Origin: Deltaproteobacteria bacterium
GTDB taxonomy: Bacteria > Desulfobacterota > Desulfarculia > Adiutricales > Adiutricaceae
Length of the DNA stretch: 47,901 nt
Assembly (NCBI GenBank): GCA_031278635.1
Contig: JAITKA010000062.1
Coordinates: forward strand, 1 to 47,901
Direction of reading: 5' to 3'
The notes under the pieces were generated by a model that searched no databases, was not told where the DNA came from, and worked only from the letters and a program-made list of their open reading frames with translations. The position numbers and the translations under genes are program-made. Shown in pieces: positions 1-9,201 of the stretch. Each line of letters opens with the position of its first letter. Position 1 is the first letter of the stretch.

Positions 1-165
1 GGACCTAGATGCCATGCCTTTGGAGCTTCACAACCATGATCACCTAAAAGCCAAGCCCCATGGGGCTTTCGAATTAAAACCCACCCTACCAAGATAGCCG
101 GGCGGGGTCAAAAAATCCCCAGGTTCTTGGACAGCATCCCGGAAGAGGTCAGGGGGGGGTTGGAA

Positions 166-405
166 ATGAAACCGACCATTTTGGCCGGCATAGGAGTACT
201 GTTTTCGGTGGTTTCCGGCTCTCTCCCAGATTTTCCTGGACAGCTGTGGATATTTATAGTTCTTTATATAGCTATAGGCACATCTATATCTTCAGCTCAG
301 TTATCTCCTACAGATGATATTTACAAAGCTGTAAGAAAAATCAGTAAATTTAAAGATATTTCTAAAGCTGATTATAAGATACTTTTAAAAACATTAAATA
401 GATAA
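166..405 (+). CDS. small hypothetical membrane protein
   Basis: ORF 127..405 with a likely internal ATG at 166 (MKPTILAGIGVLFSVV...); hydrophobic N-terminal half and Lys-rich C-terminus; AT-rich 3' half. Confidence 0.4.
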   Translation: MKPTILAGIGVLFSVVSGSLPDFPGQLWIFIVLYIAIGTSISSAQLSPTDDIYKAVRKISKFKDISKADYKILLKTLNR

Positions 406-454
406 GATGTTGTTTTAGTATGGTTCTTTTAGCGTCGATTCTAGCTTGGACAAC

Positions 455-739
455 TCACTTGGACAACTCAGTGTTGTTGTATTCATTCAGCAACTCATCA
501 TACCGCCTGTCAAGCATAGACATGGAGTAAAGCATTTCGTCAATGAATTTAGCGGTAACTTGATCCAGCAACCTGACCCGCTCGTCCGCCGCTAGTTCTT
601 GCGGCATTTTTGCCCAGACTTCACCGAGCGAAACCAGATAGGCTAGCATCTCCCTACGCAATTCCTTGCGTCCGGTAAGCAGTTGATCCAGCGGTCGCAG
701 ATGCTGACTGATGAAAGCCACGCTAGGCGTCGCCATCAC
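455..739 (-). CDS. hypothetical helical protein, second gene of an overlapping pair
   Basis: 94-aa ORF overlapping the upstream ORF by 4 bp (ATGA-type junction). Confidence 0.5.
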   Translation of the reverse strand: MMATPSVAFISQHLRPLDQLLTGRKELRREMLAYLVSLGEVWAKMPQELAADERVRLLDQVTAKFIDEMLYSMSMLDRRYDELLNEYNNTELSK

Positions 740-1023
740 TCATTTTCCGTGTTAGTGAGACTGGCCGGGGTGATGAGGTTATAAGATCTGAGCCATTGTT
801 CTATGAAAGTTTTATACGCCGTCTCTATGGCTTTTTTGCCAAAACCTTCGGTGGGGGCGTCTTCATCATCCAGGAAGCTCAAGGCAGACTCAATTTCGCT
901 TATGTCTACCTTGTAAAAAGCCAGCAACTCGGCCCGCAGTTCCGCTTGTTTTTCGAGAATCCAGTTGATACCATCCTTGTGGGCCTCAATGGTTTCAAAC
1001 AATTTATTTCTTTCGTCTGACAT
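736..1023 (-). CDS. hypothetical helical protein, first gene of an overlapping pair
   Basis: 95-aa ORF with an upstream purine-rich stretch; resembles its downstream partner. Confidence 0.5.
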   Translation of the reverse strand: MSDERNKLFETIEAHKDGINWILEKQAELRAELLAFYKVDISEIESALSFLDDEDAPTEGFGKKAIETAYKTFIEQWLRSYNLITPASLTNTENE

Positions 1024-2091
1024 TTTGCCTCCAATCTATTTGCCGAAGCGTTTTTATGCGCTTGTTAAAGGTTAAATGAGGGCTAACTGAGGACCATCAG
1101 TGCTTGGGTTCTCACGTTTGATATTATCTTTGCCTTTTAGCAACTAAATTATTACAAAGATGCCAAATTTCAATAACTAGGCACCCAAGATTTAAATTCT
1201 TACTGGCTTCGAGGGATTATTTCCAAAATCACCCCTCCACCGTTAGCACTTTCAAGTAACTATCGAATCACCTAAGATACCTTCTCGGATTTAACCGGCA
1301 TCATCGGGTAAAAATTCTCTCTCAAATGCCATTATGCTGTGGCATGGAAAACCAAGGCACCCATGTCGGCTTTGGCCAGTTCGATTCTAAAGTTCGATTC
1401 TAAAGTGTCTTTGGCCAGAATTTTATAAATTATATTGTTCTTATCATGCAGTTTCGTCGAAATTTAGACGCCTTAGTTTGTCATAAGGTTCCGAAAAGAT
1501 CTACTCACGGTGAGCATTTGTAAAGTTTAGAAAAATAAGATTATAATACTAATTTAGTTTTTATAATCTAAACATTGGGTGGCTCAACTTCTTACAGCTT
1601 ACCAGGACTCCCGGCTATCATTTGGATAAATCGTATCGGCCACTTTGTGACAATTCAAGCTTTACGGAAAAATATACGATGGACGGCAAAATTCGTCAAG
1701 TGTTTTATCATGGCTACAAAAAACGGCAACATATGTTCTAAAAAGTCTAAAGCTCTTGAATTTTCGGCTTTAAACTTGCCCGATGCCTTGGCTCTTCTTT
1801 TTCGATCACTGGTCAGGTGGAGTGATATCGTGAACTTTTTTTTATTTAGACCTCAATAGGTCAATGATATATTCCAATGTGTACTATGGCATTGGGTCGT
1901 GAATGATTATTTACATGTAGTCTTTAAATTTTTTTGTTACAATTAAAGGCGACGTGACTATTTCAATAGAATTATGACTATGTTTTTAAAATTTTATTAC
2001 ACAACATTATAATAAATTGGCAGGTTAATTTTATATTTAACAATAAAATTACCAATATATTACGACTAACCATACAAAAAATCACCCCTAG

Positions 2092-2127
2092 ACTAGGCCA
2101 TGGCGACAATAGTAGCCATGGCCTAGT
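2092..2127 (-). terminator. hairpin downstream of the NCS2 permease, putative terminator
   Basis: perfect 13-bp inverted repeat actaggccatggc/gccatggcctagt with 10-nt loop, just past the stop codon; T-run a few nt further on the minus strand. Confidence 0.55.
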
Positions 2128-2146
2128 TTGTGGCCATGAAGGCCGC

Positions 2147-3442
2147 CTAATGGCCCCTGGCCGCGAAGAACATCTTCAGGGCGAAGATGATCGCGACCAC
2201 CCAAACGGTGGCGTTCAGTTCCTTGGTCTTCCGGGCCATGACCTTCATGAAGACGTAAACGATCCAGCCCACGGCCAGGCCGTCGGAGATGCGCCAGGTC
2301 AGGCCGATCAGGATCAGGACCAGGAAGGCCGGGAAGACCTCGGTGTAGTCCTTGAACGAGACCTTGGTCATCGACTCGAGCATCAGGAGGCCGACCATGA
2401 CCAGGGCCGGGGCCACGGCGCTGAAGGGGACGATCATGAAAAGCGGGGAGACGAAAAGGGACAGGAAAAAACAGGCGGCCACGGTCAGGGCCGTGAGGCC
2501 GGTCCGCCCGCCCGAGGCCACGCCCGCGCCGCTCTCGGCGTAGGTCGTGTTGGGGGAAAGGCCGAGGCAGCCCCCCACGACCACGCCAATGGAATCGGCC
2601 ACGAAAGCCCGGCCCATCTTGTGCCGGTAGCGATCGCCGTCGGCGCCCATGACCCCGAAAAGGCCAAGGAAGCCGGCCAGGCCGTCGACCACCTCCATGA
2701 AAAGTAGGGTCAGGACCACGCTCCAGAAATCGAAAGAGGACAGGACGGAGAAATCGAACCTGAACATGATTTCGCCGACGGCCGGCGGGGCCCCGACGAA
2801 ACCGTCCGAGAGGCCCGAGACGTCCGTGACCCCCATGGGGATGCCCACGATGGTGGTGATTATGATGCCGACGAGGATGGCGAAGCGGACCCTCAGGGCC
2901 AGGAGGAGGCCGGTGATCAGGAGGCCGATCAGGGCCAGCATGGCCGGCCCCGAGGAGATGTCGCCCAGGCCCGGGCCCGTCTGGGGGTTAAGGTTGATAA
3001 GGCCGCTGTTGTAGAGCCCGATGTAGCCGATCATGAGGCCAATGCCGCCGCAGACGCCGTGCTGGAGGGCCTTGGGGACGTCCCTTAGGACCTTCTCCCG
3101 CAGGGGCGAGACGGAGAGGGCCACGAAGGCCAGCCCCGAGATCAAAACCGCGGTCAGGGCTTCCTGCCAGGAGAAACCCATCTGGGTGACCACGACGACG
3201 AAAAAGGCGTTCAGGCCCATGCCCGGGGCGACGGCGAAGGGGAGGTTGGCCACGAAGGCCATGACGAGCGTGGCCACGATGACCCCCAGGGCCGTGGCCG
3301 TGAATAGGGCCGCCTGGGGCATGCCCGCCTGGCTCACGATGATGGGGTTCACGGTCAGGACGTAAACCATGGCAAAGAAAGTGGTCAACCCGGCGCTTAT
3401 TTCCACCAGCGACGAGGCGTTATGGGCTTCCAGTTTAAACAT
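2147..3442 (-). CDS. NCS2 family purine (adenine/guanine/hypoxanthine) permease, AzgA/GhxP-like
   Basis: 431-aa polytopic protein; MFKLEAHNASSLVEISAGLTTFFAMVYVLTVNPIIVSQAGMP, VAPGMGLNAFFVV, SPNTTYAESGAGVASGGRTGLTA are typical of the AzgA-like NCS2 branch. Confidence 0.9.
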   Translation of the reverse strand: MFKLEAHNASSLVEISAGLTTFFAMVYVLTVNPIIVSQAGMPQAALFTATALGVIVATLVMAFVANLPFAVAPGMGLNAFFVVVVTQMGFSWQEALTAVLISGLAFVALSVSPLREKVLRDVPKALQHGVCGGIGLMIGYIGLYNSGLINLNPQTGPGLGDISSGPAMLALIGLLITGLLLALRVRFAILVGIIITTIVGIPMGVTDVSGLSDGFVGAPPAVGEIMFRFDFSVLSSFDFWSVVLTLLFMEVVDGLAGFLGLFGVMGADGDRYRHKMGRAFVADSIGVVVGGCLGLSPNTTYAESGAGVASGGRTGLTALTVAACFFLSLFVSPLFMIVPFSAVAPALVMVGLLMLESMTKVSFKDYTEVFPAFLVLILIGLTWRISDGLAVGWIVYVFMKVMARKTKELNATVWVVAIIFALKMFFAARGH

Positions 3443-3589
3443 GATACCCCTCTCCAGACCTGGGGGCCCGGGGCGCGGGAAAAATACCCCGCCGCCATGG
3501 GCCGCCCGGATATTGGTCAGATTGGGAGGCCTTTGCCATCAACCGCCCGGAAGCGGGGGCCAAGGCGGGGCGCCGCCATAAAGGCCCCG

Positions 3590-3800
3590 GCCCGGCAGGT
3601 CTTCTGGCTCACGGATCGACCGGTTCCGTCGCGGCCTTCCCGGGGAATGACCCCAGTGACCAGCCAATGGCCCGGGGAACCCCCCACGGGCTTTGGCTCA
3701 TGGCGACGTCCCGTCCCCGTTCACAGCGGCGGGTCCGCCTCGGTTTTGACCGAACTTCCTTGGTTGCCGAACCGCCCTTAAGGTACTCCTCGGTGGCTTG
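3590..3800 (-). promoter_or_regulatory. cobalamin (adenosylcobalamin-type) riboswitch
   Basis: minus strand reads GGAAGTTCGGTCAAAACCGAGGCGGACCCGCCGCTGTGAAC ... CACTGGGGTCATTCCCCGGGAAGGCC ... GAGCCAGAAGACCTGCC, matching conserved B12-box elements in the right order; about 150 nt upstream of the permease ATG. Confidence 0.92.
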
Positions 3801-3928
3801 GTTGTCAACTTCAATCTCTATTCACTGCATAACAGGCTCAAAAACGTAGCCAGTCAAATTTTTCGTTATTTCTTTCGGTAATATACGCTTAAAGACATGA
3901 CATAGGCTCAAAAAAAGCGACTATCCAC

Positions 3929-4683: not shown

Positions 4684-5766
4684 TTGACAGACCAGATTAA
4701 CGTTGCGTTACTGTGTAGTGGCATATCCAAGACATTCGGTAACCATAGGGCTCTTATCGATGTCGATCTTTCCGTAAGAAAGGGCGAAGTATTAACTATA
4801 CTTGGCCCTTCTGGCTGTGGGAAGACGACTCTTTTGAGGATCATCGCAGGCTTGGAACTCGCGGACGCGGGCCAAGTCTTCCTAAACGACGAAGACATAA
4901 CCAGGTACCCCGCCTCTAGGCGGCCAATCAATACCGTCTTTCAGAGTTATGCTCTTTTTCCCCACCTTGACGTATTTTCCAACGTCGCCTTCGGGCTCCA
5001 GGCCAAAAAGACCGCAAAGTCTAAAATAACCCAAAAAGTCGGGGACATCCTGTCCCTGGTCCGTATGGACGGCCTGGAAAAACGATTCCCCCATCAACTC
5101 TCCGGTGGACAAAAGCAAAGGGTGGCTCTGGCCAGGGCGCTGGTCAACGAGCCCAAGCTGCTTTTATTGGACGAGCCCATGAGCGCCCTGGACGCCCATC
5201 TCAGGACCAAGGTCCAGGACGAGCTCCGGGCCCTCCAGAAAGAGCTGGGAACCACCTTCGTTTTGGTGACGCACGACCAGAACGAGGCCAAGCGGCTTTC
5301 CAACCACCTGGCCGTCATGAACGAGGGCCAGATCATCCAGTTCGGGACCACCGAGAAAGTTTTCACCAAACCCGACAACAAGTTCGTGGCCGAGTTCCTG
5401 GGAGCGACCAACCTGTTCGAGGCCTCCAGGGACGGGGCCCTGTACCGCACCAGGTACGGGCCCATGGACGTGACCGACAAGCCGGTCTGGGACGAGGGCA
5501 AGATCCTCATCTGGCCCGAGCGCATCGAGATCCACGAGAAGGCCAAGACCGGCGAGCCAAACTGGTTCAGCTGTTACGTCAGGGACAGGGTGTTTAACGG
5601 CGACGGGCTTGACCTCCTGCTGGTCAAGGACGCCGGGAACGATTCCCTGGAAAAACCAATCCTGGTCAAGGCGAGAAATTCCTTCGATATCCAAAGCGGC
5701 CAGGAGGTCGGGGTCTACTTTCCCCCCGATTACCTGGTGCCCCTGGAAAACCGCGCCCAAAATTGA
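4684..5766 (+). CDS. potA: spermidine/putrescine ABC transporter ATP-binding protein
   Basis: Walker A GPSGCGKTT, signature LSGGQKQRVALARAL, Walker B LLLLDEPMSALD, TOBE-like C-terminus; TTG start; followed by potB/potC-like permeases. Confidence 0.88.
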   Translation: MTDQINVALLCSGISKTFGNHRALIDVDLSVRKGEVLTILGPSGCGKTTLLRIIAGLELADAGQVFLNDEDITRYPASRRPINTVFQSYALFPHLDVFSNVAFGLQAKKTAKSKITQKVGDILSLVRMDGLEKRFPHQLSGGQKQRVALARALVNEPKLLLLDEPMSALDAHLRTKVQDELRALQKELGTTFVLVTHDQNEAKRLSNHLAVMNEGQIIQFGTTEKVFTKPDNKFVAEFLGATNLFEASRDGALYRTRYGPMDVTDKPVWDEGKILIWPERIEIHEKAKTGEPNWFSCYVRDRVFNGDGLDLLLVKDAGNDSLEKPILVKARNSFDIQSGQEVGVYFPPDYLVPLENRAQN

Positions 5767-5784
5767 TACTGCCCCGCCCTTCCC

Positions 5785-5819
5785 GGGCCCGGCCCAGCTT
5801 GCCTGGGCCGGGCCCTTTT
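5785..5819 (+). terminator. hairpin plus T4 between potA and potB, possible attenuator
   Basis: perfect 13-bp stem gggcccggcccag/ctgggccgggccc, 5-nt loop, followed by tttt. Confidence 0.55.
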
Positions 5820-5847
5820 GGCGTTTTATTCCCCCAAGGAGGCGGAC

Positions 5848-6816
5848 ATGGGCCATGACGGCGCCCCCAAAATTCCCGGCCAGGGACCGAGGACGGTGGT
5901 TTGGCTCGGCGAGCTCACGACCTACTGGCGCCTGCGGCTGAGGTCCCTGGCCATGGCCGGCCCCCCGCTCCTGTGGCTCACGCTCCTTCTGGCCGTGCCC
6001 TGCCTTCTATTGGGCTGCCTCGCCTTCGCCAGCCGTGGCCAGTACGGCGAGATCGTCTTCCAGGCGACGGCCGTGAACCTAAAGCGCCTCATCGGCTACA
6101 CGACCTTCGGCTGGAGCCCGGCCTTCCTGTACATCATGGCCCGGAGCCTGTGGGTGGCCCTCGTGACCACGGTCCTGTGCGTCGCCCTGGCCTACCCCCT
6201 GACCTTCCACATAGCCACAAGGCCCCCAAAAAAGCGCGTCTACTGGCTCATCCTCCTGATCATCCCCTTTTGGACCAACGTGGTCATACGGGCCTACGCC
6301 TGGCTTTTGATCCTGGGGCCACAAATGCCCCCGGCCAAAATCGCCGCCGTCCTGGGCCTCATAGGCGACGGGGCCTCCCTCTACCCGGGGCCCCTGGCCG
6401 TCTACCTGGGCATGGTCAGCACTTTCCTGCCCTTCATGGCCCTGCCCCTCTACGCCAGCGTGGAACGCATCAACTGGGAGATCCTGGAGGCGGCCAAGGA
6501 CCTCTACGGCTCCCGCTACATGATCTTCATGCAGGCCGTGCTGCCCCAGACCAAGCCCGGCCTTTACGTGGGCATTATAGTGACCTTCGTCCCCTCCATG
6601 GCCATGTTCGTGGTCACGGACATCCTGGGGGGCGCGAAAACCATGCTCATCGGCAATCTCATCCAGCAGCAGTTCGCCCAGGCCAGGGACTGGCCCTTCG
6701 GGGCGGCCCTGTCCGCGGCCCTGATGCTCCTGACCCTCATGAGCCTGGCCGTCTTCCGCTGGCGCCGCCGGGACGGGAACGGCGGGGGCTCCTCGATTTT
6801 CGGCGGCTTCGACTGA
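5848..6816 (+). CDS. potB: spermidine/putrescine ABC transporter permease
   Basis: binding-protein-dependent permease with EAA-type motif (EAAKDLYGSRYMIFMQAVLPQTKPGLYVG); ATG at 5848 preceded by aaggagg, preferred over the ORF-track TTG at 5818. Confidence 0.87.
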   Translation: MGHDGAPKIPGQGPRTVVWLGELTTYWRLRLRSLAMAGPPLLWLTLLLAVPCLLLGCLAFASRGQYGEIVFQATAVNLKRLIGYTTFGWSPAFLYIMARSLWVALVTTVLCVALAYPLTFHIATRPPKKRVYWLILLIIPFWTNVVIRAYAWLLILGPQMPPAKIAAVLGLIGDGASLYPGPLAVYLGMVSTFLPFMALPLYASVERINWEILEAAKDLYGSRYMIFMQAVLPQTKPGLYVGIIVTFVPSMAMFVVTDILGGAKTMLIGNLIQQQFAQARDWPFGAALSAALMLLTLMSLAVFRWRRRDGNGGGSSIFGGFD

Positions 6817-6884
6817 GGCCCACGGCGGGCGGCCCCGCCGGGGGGCCCGCCGGCCATAAACTTTAGCAAGACCCAGGGATTGGA

Positions 6885-7676
6885 ATGAAACAGAAAAGGC
6901 CGCTTGTGGCCCTAATCGCCGTTTTTGGGATGGTGCTCATGTACGCGCCCTCGGTCGCCGTGGCCGTGTTCTCGGTAAACGACGCCATCTACGGCCTCGC
7001 CTGGCGGGGCTTTACCCTCAAATGGTATAAATTCCTCTTCCAAAACGAGTACATCATAAACGCGGCCATAAACACCCTGATCCTGGCCACCGTCTCGACC
7101 ATCGCCTCCACCATCCTGGGGACGGCCCTGGCCATCGGCCTCTACCGCGCCCCCTGGTCCCCTGGCCTCCACCGCCTCTTCGATCTGGTCATAAACCTCC
7201 CGGTGGTCGTGCCGGACATAATCATGGCCGTGGCCCTGGCCCTGGCCTTTAACGCCCTGCGCATGGTCTGCTCGATCTTCGATATCGGCATGGTCACCCT
7301 GATCGTCTCCCACGTGACCTTCCAGATCTCCTTCGTGACCCTTGTGGTCAAAAGCCGCCTCGAGAGCCTCGGGCACGATACCGACGAGGCGGCCCGGGAC
7401 CTCTACGCCTCGACCTTCTTCCACTTCAGGCGCGTGACCCTGCCCCTCATCCGCCCGGGCATCATAGCCGGGGGCATGCTGGCCTTCACGCTTTCCCTGG
7501 ACGATTTCATCATCAGCTTCTTTAACCACGGCCCGGAGTCGGTCACCCTGCCCATATACGTGTACGCCGCGGTCAAAAGGGGCATAACCCCGGAAATCCA
7601 TGCCCTGTCCACGGTTATGCTGGTCCTGACGGCCATACCCATAATCATCGCCGAGCGCCTGACCCGAAAGTTTTGA
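6885..7676 (+). CDS. potC: spermidine/putrescine ABC transporter permease
   Basis: EAARDLYASTFFHFRRVTLPLIRPGIIAGGMLAFTLSLDDFIISFF is typical of PotC. Confidence 0.9.
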   Translation: MKQKRPLVALIAVFGMVLMYAPSVAVAVFSVNDAIYGLAWRGFTLKWYKFLFQNEYIINAAINTLILATVSTIASTILGTALAIGLYRAPWSPGLHRLFDLVINLPVVVPDIIMAVALALAFNALRMVCSIFDIGMVTLIVSHVTFQISFVTLVVKSRLESLGHDTDEAARDLYASTFFHFRRVTLPLIRPGIIAGGMLAFTLSLDDFIISFFNHGPESVTLPIYVYAAVKRGITPEIHALSTVMLVLTAIPIIIAERLTRKF

Positions 7677-7722: not shown

Positions 7723-8700
7723 TTACCTTGCCGCCTGCCTGACCCACTCCAGGCGCTCGTAGGGGATGCCCTTGGGGATGGTGCAATCGGCCCCGACGAT
7801 CACGCCCTCCCGCCCGGCCTCGGCCAGGATTTTTTTGGTGAAGCCCTCGATTTCCCGCCTGTCCCCGGTCTCCAAAATCGAGCCCGGGGTGTTGGGGAAG
7901 CCGCCCAGGACGGCCCTCCCGCCGAAGAATTTCCGGCCCTCCCCCAGGGGTAAGCCCTCGACGTTGGCCGCCCAGCTGAATATGGCCGCCGGGTAGTCCC
8001 GGTAGGGCAAAAAATTATTCCTGACGCCCGCGTAGCCACAAACGTGGAGGATGCTGCGCCCGCCGGCCCCGTTGGTGGCCCCAAGGAGCCCCATCTCCCC
8101 GGGGGCCAGCCGATCGGCATAAAACCAGTCGCCCAGCCTCGTGATGTCGGGGTTTTGGACGCTCAGGTAAAGCCCGTCCGCGCCCCCCTCGCCGATGACG
8201 GCCAGCGACAGGGCCTTTAGGCCCTCGTTCAGGCGCCCGATCGCGGCCAGGGTGATTTCCGGCTCCTTTTGGAGCCACCCGACCAGCTTTTCCCTCCCGG
8301 CCATGAAACGGAGGGTGGTGGAGGCGCTAAAGACGTTAAAGAAATAAAACGTCCCGGGCTTCATCCCGGTCACGGCCTTGACCAGCCCCACCTGATCCCT
8401 GACCCACCTATGCCCGGGCCCTATGGGCTCGATCAATTCCAGGTCCCCTATTTCCCTCACGGCCCGGGCCCCCCCGGCAAGCGGGTAGGCGAAGAAGCCG
8501 TCCGTCATGATCTTGACCAAATCCGGCTTGAAGCCCGTGACGTACTCCCTGTGGCCCTCGACGTTCCGTTCCAAGACGCTCCCGTCGAAAAGCCCGTTGG
8601 CCGTTTCCGCGTCGCTCAGGAAGTGGAACCAAAAACCCACCGGCACCCTTTCCGCGGGCTTGCCGCTTATGACGTTTTCCAATAATTCCCTGTCGTTCAT
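7723..8700 (-). CDS. uroporphyrinogen decarboxylase (URO-D) superfamily protein, MtaA/MtbA-like methyltransferase type
   Basis: start at MNDRELLENVISGKPAERVPVGFWFHF; HVCG and GADC motifs about 85 residues apart resemble the His-X-Cys...Cys zinc site of corrinoid:CoM methyltransferases. Confidence 0.75.
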   Translation of the reverse strand: MNDRELLENVISGKPAERVPVGFWFHFLSDAETANGLFDGSVLERNVEGHREYVTGFKPDLVKIMTDGFFAYPLAGGARAVREIGDLELIEPIGPGHRWVRDQVGLVKAVTGMKPGTFYFFNVFSASTTLRFMAGREKLVGWLQKEPEITLAAIGRLNEGLKALSLAVIGEGGADGLYLSVQNPDITRLGDWFYADRLAPGEMGLLGATNGAGGRSILHVCGYAGVRNNFLPYRDYPAAIFSWAANVEGLPLGEGRKFFGGRAVLGGFPNTPGSILETGDRREIEGFTKKILAEAGREGVIVGADCTIPKGIPYERLEWVRQAAR

Positions 8701-8766
8701 CGGGCGACTCCTAACTACCCCTTTAATCCCGGCCATTTCCCAAGCCGGGCAATTTTTTTTCCAAGG

Positions 8767-8866
8767 CCCATCCGGGCGGACGATCCCGCCCACCCGGGCG
8801 GACGATCCCGCCCTTTCTGGTGGACGATCCCGCCCATCCGGGCGGACGATCCCGCCCATCCTGGCG
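8767..8866. repeat. 22-bp tandem repeat array, four full units plus one partial
   Basis: unit cccatccgggcggacgatcccg at 8767, 8789, 8811 (diverged), 8833, with partial at 8855. Confidence 0.95.
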
Positions 8867-9201
8867 CTACCATACAACTTAAAGCCTTTCGGTTCAATCC
8901 CAAAAGGCCCTCCCGGCCCAGGCCAAAGGAATGGGGCCAGATCATACCAAAGAAAAAAATTTTTTCTTAACGAAAGCGCTAATGTTTAAATAAGCGTACT
9001 ATATTTTCCCAAAGCGAAAGTCCCCGCTCCCCAGGTTGGGACCTTTAGCCATAACTAAACCGACAAGATACCGTTTGGTTTCTAAAACTTGATTGTAATG
9101 CCCAATTTAAAGTGGTAAACTTTTGCGGTCGAAAACGCCCGCCAAAGTTCGGCGGGCCTGGGGTTGGCCCAATCAAGCATAATCGGTAAGGGGTTTTTTC
9201 C

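Follow-up and report, generated by a model that had tools for sequence, protein, structure and literature searches.

Organization of the Locus

The minus strand of the analysed window, a stretch of 47,901 nucleotides from contig JAITKA010000062.1 of a Deltaproteobacteria bacterium, contains a cobalamin riboswitch followed by the gene of an NCS2 permease, together with a promoter-like sequence, a platform hairpin 3' of the aptamer and a probable ribosome-binding site (Table 1). The aptamer matched the full length of the Rfam model (positions 1-189, E 1.1e-11, cmscan), and the same 57.2 bits were obtained in an independent whole-genome search. The distance from its end to the permease ATG on the same strand is 134 nt, and no same-strand ORFs were found between them in the window. 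Hence, the preliminary description of this DNA, which had reported a B12 riboswitch on the minus strand about 150 nt upstream of an AzgA/GhxP-like NCS2 permease, in the same orientation and with no gene between, was correct in these respects. Corrinoid binding and the resulting change of expression are predicted for the window riboswitch.

Table 1. Features of the riboswitch-permease locus (window coordinates).
Feature	Position	Strand	Evidence and details
Promoter-like sequence	3780..3808	minus	Sequence reading; TTGACA (3808-3803), 17-nt spacer, TACCTT (3785-3780)
Cobalamin riboswitch aptamer, RF00174	3785-3577	minus	cmscan, 57.2 bits (gathering score 31.5)
Platform hairpin	3524..3548	minus	Loop GATGGCAAA at 3540-3532; arms GGGCGGTT / GGCCTCC
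Probable ribosome-binding site	3447..3455	minus	Sequence reading; GGAGAGGGG
NCS2 / AZG-type permease, 431 aa (regulated gene, predicted)	3442-2147	minus	PF00860 (Xan_ur_permease), 136.8 bits (gathering score 27)

The TACCTT hexamer of the promoter-like sequence abuts the 5' edge of the aptamer; the promoter scan of the window yielded 0 sites at threshold, the second hexamer having 3/6 matches. Most orthologous loci contain a TTGACA-N16-18-TATAAT-like pair 43-51 nt 5' of the aptamer core, with 10-12 of 12 matches in many of them. Intrinsic terminators, consisting of a G+C-rich hairpin and a T-run, were identified between the aptamer and the gene in at least a dozen relatives. No such terminator with a T-run was found by a scan of the window leader, the T-run also being missing throughout the window's genus, which suggests that control in the window is probably translational. 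In this genus, a CCTCC strand may pair with the ribosome-binding site.

The genome that holds the window (G000; 3.4 Mb, 92% complete) has five more RF00174 sites besides that of the permease, as revealed by the whole-genome search. They precede genes read from the ORFs as a cbiK-like cobalt chelatase, cbiM/cbiQ and exbB/exbD-like genes, the remaining sites being arranged in tandem with no clear gene behind them. Thus, the permease is the odd member of an ordinary B12 regulon. The tandem riboswitches (L149, G000:C88:190-398 and 654-816, plus strand) have no recognisable ORF behind them and run into a convergent pyrE. The same tandem arrangement, again with no recognisable ORF, was observed in G002 (L147, 3062-2852 and 2651-2433, minus strand) and G003 (L148, 3081-2887 and 2668-2438, minus strand); these sites could possibly drive a riboswitch-controlled non-coding or antisense RNA.

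The neighbours of the permease are potABC (divergent), cca and purA; cobT is located elsewhere in the genome, and the permease was not seen to share an operon with it or with any other cob gene. In many relatives purA lies two genes downstream of the permease, with cca between them, the arrangement having gaps. The potABC-like genes of a polyamine ABC transporter (window 4684-7676, plus strand), divergent from the riboswitch, are upstream neighbours in many relatives as well. Next to them, at 7723-8877 on the minus strand, the window encodes a URO-D family protein (25.4 bits, barely above the cut-off) with a predicted N-terminal extension of repeated short units; a related gene adjoins potABC in the relative L043. 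Downstream of the window permease, cca-purA is missing and small unknown ORFs are present instead (455-739, 736-1023 minus). The G+C content of this region (window 1-2130) is 38-45% vs about 66% in the permease, and a segment inserted at the contig end is suggested.

Permease Family and Substrate Helices

The closest solved relatives of the permease, both by sequence and by fold, are AZG1 and AZG2, with AZG1 as the top match in both comparisons (238 bits against the family profile and E 1.4e-21 for the fold; the mean pLDDT of the AlphaFold model is 87). AZG1 and AZG2 are plant adenine/guanine and cytokinin carriers. In the substrate helices, N78 (TM3), D253 (TM8) and E303 (TM10) do not vary among the clade members. 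Comparison of 21 clade members with 22 outgroup permeases revealed differences around these residues: the TM8 motif is (D)(G/T/S)LAGF in the clade vs D(T/S)..T-like in the outgroup, and the TM10 motif is SPNT(T/A)Y(A/G/C)ESG vs x..T(T/A)Y(I/V)ES. All 21 clade members depart from the canonical purine-permease TM8/TM10 motifs, although D253 and E303 are retained. With A/G instead of I/V next to the invariant glutamate, the site would become larger, which suits a substituted benzimidazole; by itself this proves nothing. Internal stop codons suspected in some permease orthologues were rejected, as only the terminal stop is present.

Conservation of the Riboswitch-Permease Pair

Relatives matched by the permease profile are termite-gut Deltaproteobacteria, MAGs of Candidatus Adiutrix and Deltaproteobacteria bacterium Smac51, whose genome is complete (CP026657) and whose permease has an 80-bit riboswitch. 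The family of the window is referred to below as f1, Adiutrix-like termite-gut Desulfobacterota, a name taken from the titles of the relatives. Orthologues of the permease occur in nearly all sampled f1 genomes, with protein identity of 55-83%. In 28 of the 31 testable genomes, down to 55% identity, RF00174 immediately precedes the permease in the same orientation; genomes were testable if upstream sequence was available, and L010, L052, L063 and L082, where contigs end near the gene, were excluded. The association among relatives, on which the preliminary description had made its proposal depend, is therefore retained. In total there are 30 permease riboswitch sites, including two tandem duplications; L050 and L060 have two permeases each, every copy with its own riboswitch. 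Unlike these, L028/L150 (G017:C19:39807-42712) has two consecutive permeases behind one riboswitch. No recognisable riboswitch was found upstream of the permease in L018, L030 and L069. A group II intron sequence is present there in L018, and the permease of L069 seems, by eye, to retain a decayed leader.

No riboswitch near an NCS2 gene was detected in 29 genomes of other phyla with the nearest NCS2 relatives, and none accompanies the NCS2 paralogues of the sister families (L031-L035). The recurrence in 28 of 31 genomes shows that the pairing is not due to chance, and the lack of riboswitches at the outgroup genes and sister paralogues indicates that it arose in f1 and has been maintained by this family.

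Genes for Lower-Ligand Synthesis and Activation

In the sister families f4 and f5, an RF00174 riboswitch immediately precedes a second gene of the ThiC type (574-584 bits), with cobT behind this gene in G029 and G031. In G029, a methyltransferase-like gene and a gene for a BzaD-like radical SAM protein (TIGR04385, 413 of 450 bits) follow as well. Given this gene context, the riboswitch-controlled paralogue is probably BzaF, the anaerobic 5-hydroxybenzimidazole synthase; the NCBIfam ThiC model outscores the BzaB model, and sequence models alone would name it ThiC.

In f1, ThiC-type genes of any kind are missing from all 16 genomes analysed, and BluB was not found above the cut-off in any of the 25 sampled genomes. 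As the completeness of the MAGs is 61-96%, the absence refers to the 16 f1 genomes taken together. CobT is present in 14 of the 16, including the genome of the window (TIGR03160, 397 bits). Thus, f1 bacteria have the enzyme to activate a lower base and no known route to a benzimidazole. Moreover, since ThiC is absent, they should need an external supply of thiamine or of the pyrimidine from which it is made. The late de novo purine gene purH was found in all genomes checked, including all 16 of f1, while adenine phosphoribosyltransferase (apt) did not exceed the cut-off in any of 25 genomes. A gene read as HGPRT-like is present.

Platform Hairpin Subtype

A hairpin with the loop GANGGNAAA is located 3' of the aptamer in 29 of the 30 permease riboswitches, with about 0.6 of 30 expected from shuffling. 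The same hairpin occurs in all six bzaF-type riboswitches (five placed by Rfam and L186 by eye) and in the single cobT riboswitch (G011, L141), and in none of the 38 other cobalamin riboswitches of the same genomes, the window's own included. The Fisher test of this association (p 2e-18) ignores relatedness and hence overstates the case; the controls, though, were drawn from the same genomes. The cobT aptamer also has the GGAACACGGT core in common with the permease aptamers.

The stem of the platform varies with pairing kept: the first pair is T-G, C-G, T-A or A-T, and the second is T-A, G-C, C-G or T-G. Its 3' arm serves as the 5' arm of the terminator or as the anti-ribosome-site strand, so that the platform hairpin and the terminator or anti-ribosome-site fold are mutually exclusive. 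The UGGY of the platform could pair with GCCA in the 3' box of the aptamer; the switch would then be linked to whether the aptamer is occupied. Sharing of the platform could reflect common descent of the RNA and not shared function; whether it descends from a bzaF leader or marks a functional subtype, the platform appears to tie the permease to the supply of lower ligands, not to cobalt or corrinoid uptake.

Proposed Function

On the sequence evidence, from which we infer the direction of regulation, the substrate and its destination, the permease gene probably is repressed by corrinoids and serves to take up the base that forms the lower ligand of cobamides. At a low intracellular level of cobamide, the free aptamer would permit formation of the GANGGNAAA platform hairpin, which would block the terminator in most relatives, or the pairing that blocks the ribosome site in the window's genus, and the permease would be made. 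It would import the free lower base, to be activated by CobT and attached through the nucleotide-loop pathway; the cobamide product would then bind the aptamer and switch the permease gene off. A point against an importer is that DMB may pass through membranes unaided.

The cargo had been described in the preliminary account as a purine or, alternatively, a benzimidazole-type base. Import of a lower base as such is favored by the absence of bzaF/ThiC-type genes with CobT kept and by the shared platform, whereas the choice of purine came out weaker than the benzimidazole alternative because of the presence of PurH, the lack of apt above the cut-off and the changed motifs of the substrate helices. 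The leading candidate is a benzimidazole (5-hydroxy-, 5-methoxy- or 5,6-dimethylbenzimidazole), with purine second, but we put this assignment at somewhat less than an even chance. As f1 has no known route to a benzimidazole, the need for such a base would explain an importer repressed by B12 better than the need for a purine. Faecal pellets of the termite Zootermopsis contained free benzimidazoles at about 0.85 pmol/g, a low level, but present (PMC4230183). Against benzimidazole, AZG-type proteins carry purines and cytokinins, and sequence does not prove transport of any benzimidazole. The purA gene downstream in many relatives may point to purine metabolism and is a slight argument in favor of purines. 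The HGPRT-like gene, the three genomes with a permease and no recognisable riboswitch, and the naming of bzaF from gene context likewise weigh against the proposed function.

Import of adenine, guanine, hypoxanthine or purine as a lower ligand for purinyl-cobamides seems unlikely to us. It agrees with the adenine/guanine permease family and fold of the protein, the invariance of N78, D253 and E303, and the lack of identifiable benzimidazole synthesis genes in the clade, and anaerobes are known to use purines as lower ligands (PMC6461909). However, cells with PurH make purines and hardly need to import them for this purpose, and the TM8/TM10 motifs are altered in comparison with purine-permease-like relatives.

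Still less probable is a nutritional response, in which one-carbon metabolism or AdoCbl-dependent ribonucleotide reduction is restricted by a lack of B12, and more purine is taken up to relieve the de novo pathway. The HGPRT-like gene and the proximity of purA are in line with it, as are cobalamin riboswitches at compensating isozymes, e.g., NrdDG in delta-proteobacteria (PMC545781). Yet it leaves unexplained why the platform subtype is found elsewhere only at bzaF and cobT and why ThiC-type genes are absent across the clade; moreover, apt never exceeded the cut-off, and no NCS2 gene adjoins a riboswitch in the 29 outgroup genomes. A folate-trap test based on methionine synthase (PF02965) was set aside, as the delta-proteobacterial MetH lacks this domain (PMC545781). 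Finally, it is very improbable that the riboswitch is a relic or a neutral neighbour, the leader of a lost bzaF kept with regulation of no adaptive meaning: the bzaF subtype of the platform would be expected if the permease had landed behind a former bzaF leader, and the L069 leader looks decayed, but the family as a whole maintains the core of the aptamer, the spacing of the promoter and the terminator, and duplicated permeases each retain their own riboswitch.

Uptake of a lower-ligand base, our preferred reading, allows a more specific scenario, which we advance tentatively: f1 may have swapped anaerobic benzimidazole synthesis by BzaF for import, with the NCS2 permease as the first dedicated carrier of free benzimidazole and with the lower-ligand genes having a platform subtype of their own, unlike that of the genes for cobalt and corrinoid uptake in these genomes.

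Novelty and Implications

Neither a coupling of a cobalamin riboswitch to a purine or NCS2 permease nor a transporter for free benzimidazole or another free lower-ligand base was found in a search of 5.4 million open papers; the main text of a regulon survey describes no such riboswitch-permease class (PMC3766115). The riboswitch and transporter families are known. What appears to be new is their pairing, the conservation of this pair throughout the clade instead of bzaF, and the subtype of the platform.

If a B12-switched permease has indeed replaced BzaF, it would name a carrier for free lower-ligand bases, make benzimidazole cross-feeding testable via one gene and mark, at the genome level, bacteria that rely on neighbours for the structure of their cobamide. 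A platform subtype tied to lower ligands, if true, would open a sequence-only route to further supply genes. Free benzimidazoles circulate in many habitats, and the availability of lower ligands determines the cobamide that a bacterium produces. A gene for benzimidazole synthesis or phenolic attachment is lacking in 42% of predicted cobamide producers (PMC6461909).

Comparison with Known Systems

The locus resembles several known systems and differs from each of them. First, it shares with the RF00174 class the full-length aptamer, the position in the leader of a transport gene and, in many relatives, the terminator-type platform; the differences are the target, an NCS2 nucleobase-type permease, and the GANGGNAAA loop, found elsewhere in the genomes examined only at bzaF-type and cobT genes. 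Second, the regulatory leader subtype and the lower ligand served are common to bzaF and the bza operons, but the permease would import what bza synthesises, and f1 has no synthase. Third, the AzgA/AZG branch, including AZG1 and AZG2, is similar in fold, sequence family and the invariant N, D and E of TM3, TM8 and TM10, and differs from the clade permease in the TM8 and TM10 motifs. Finally, salvage of an external lower-ligand precursor is also performed by CblT, a transporter of the ECF type, and CblS. CblT belongs to another family and carries the nucleoside alpha-ribazole, with CblS as the kinase (PMC6461909), whereas the cargo proposed for the f1 permease is the free base, which would be activated by CobT.
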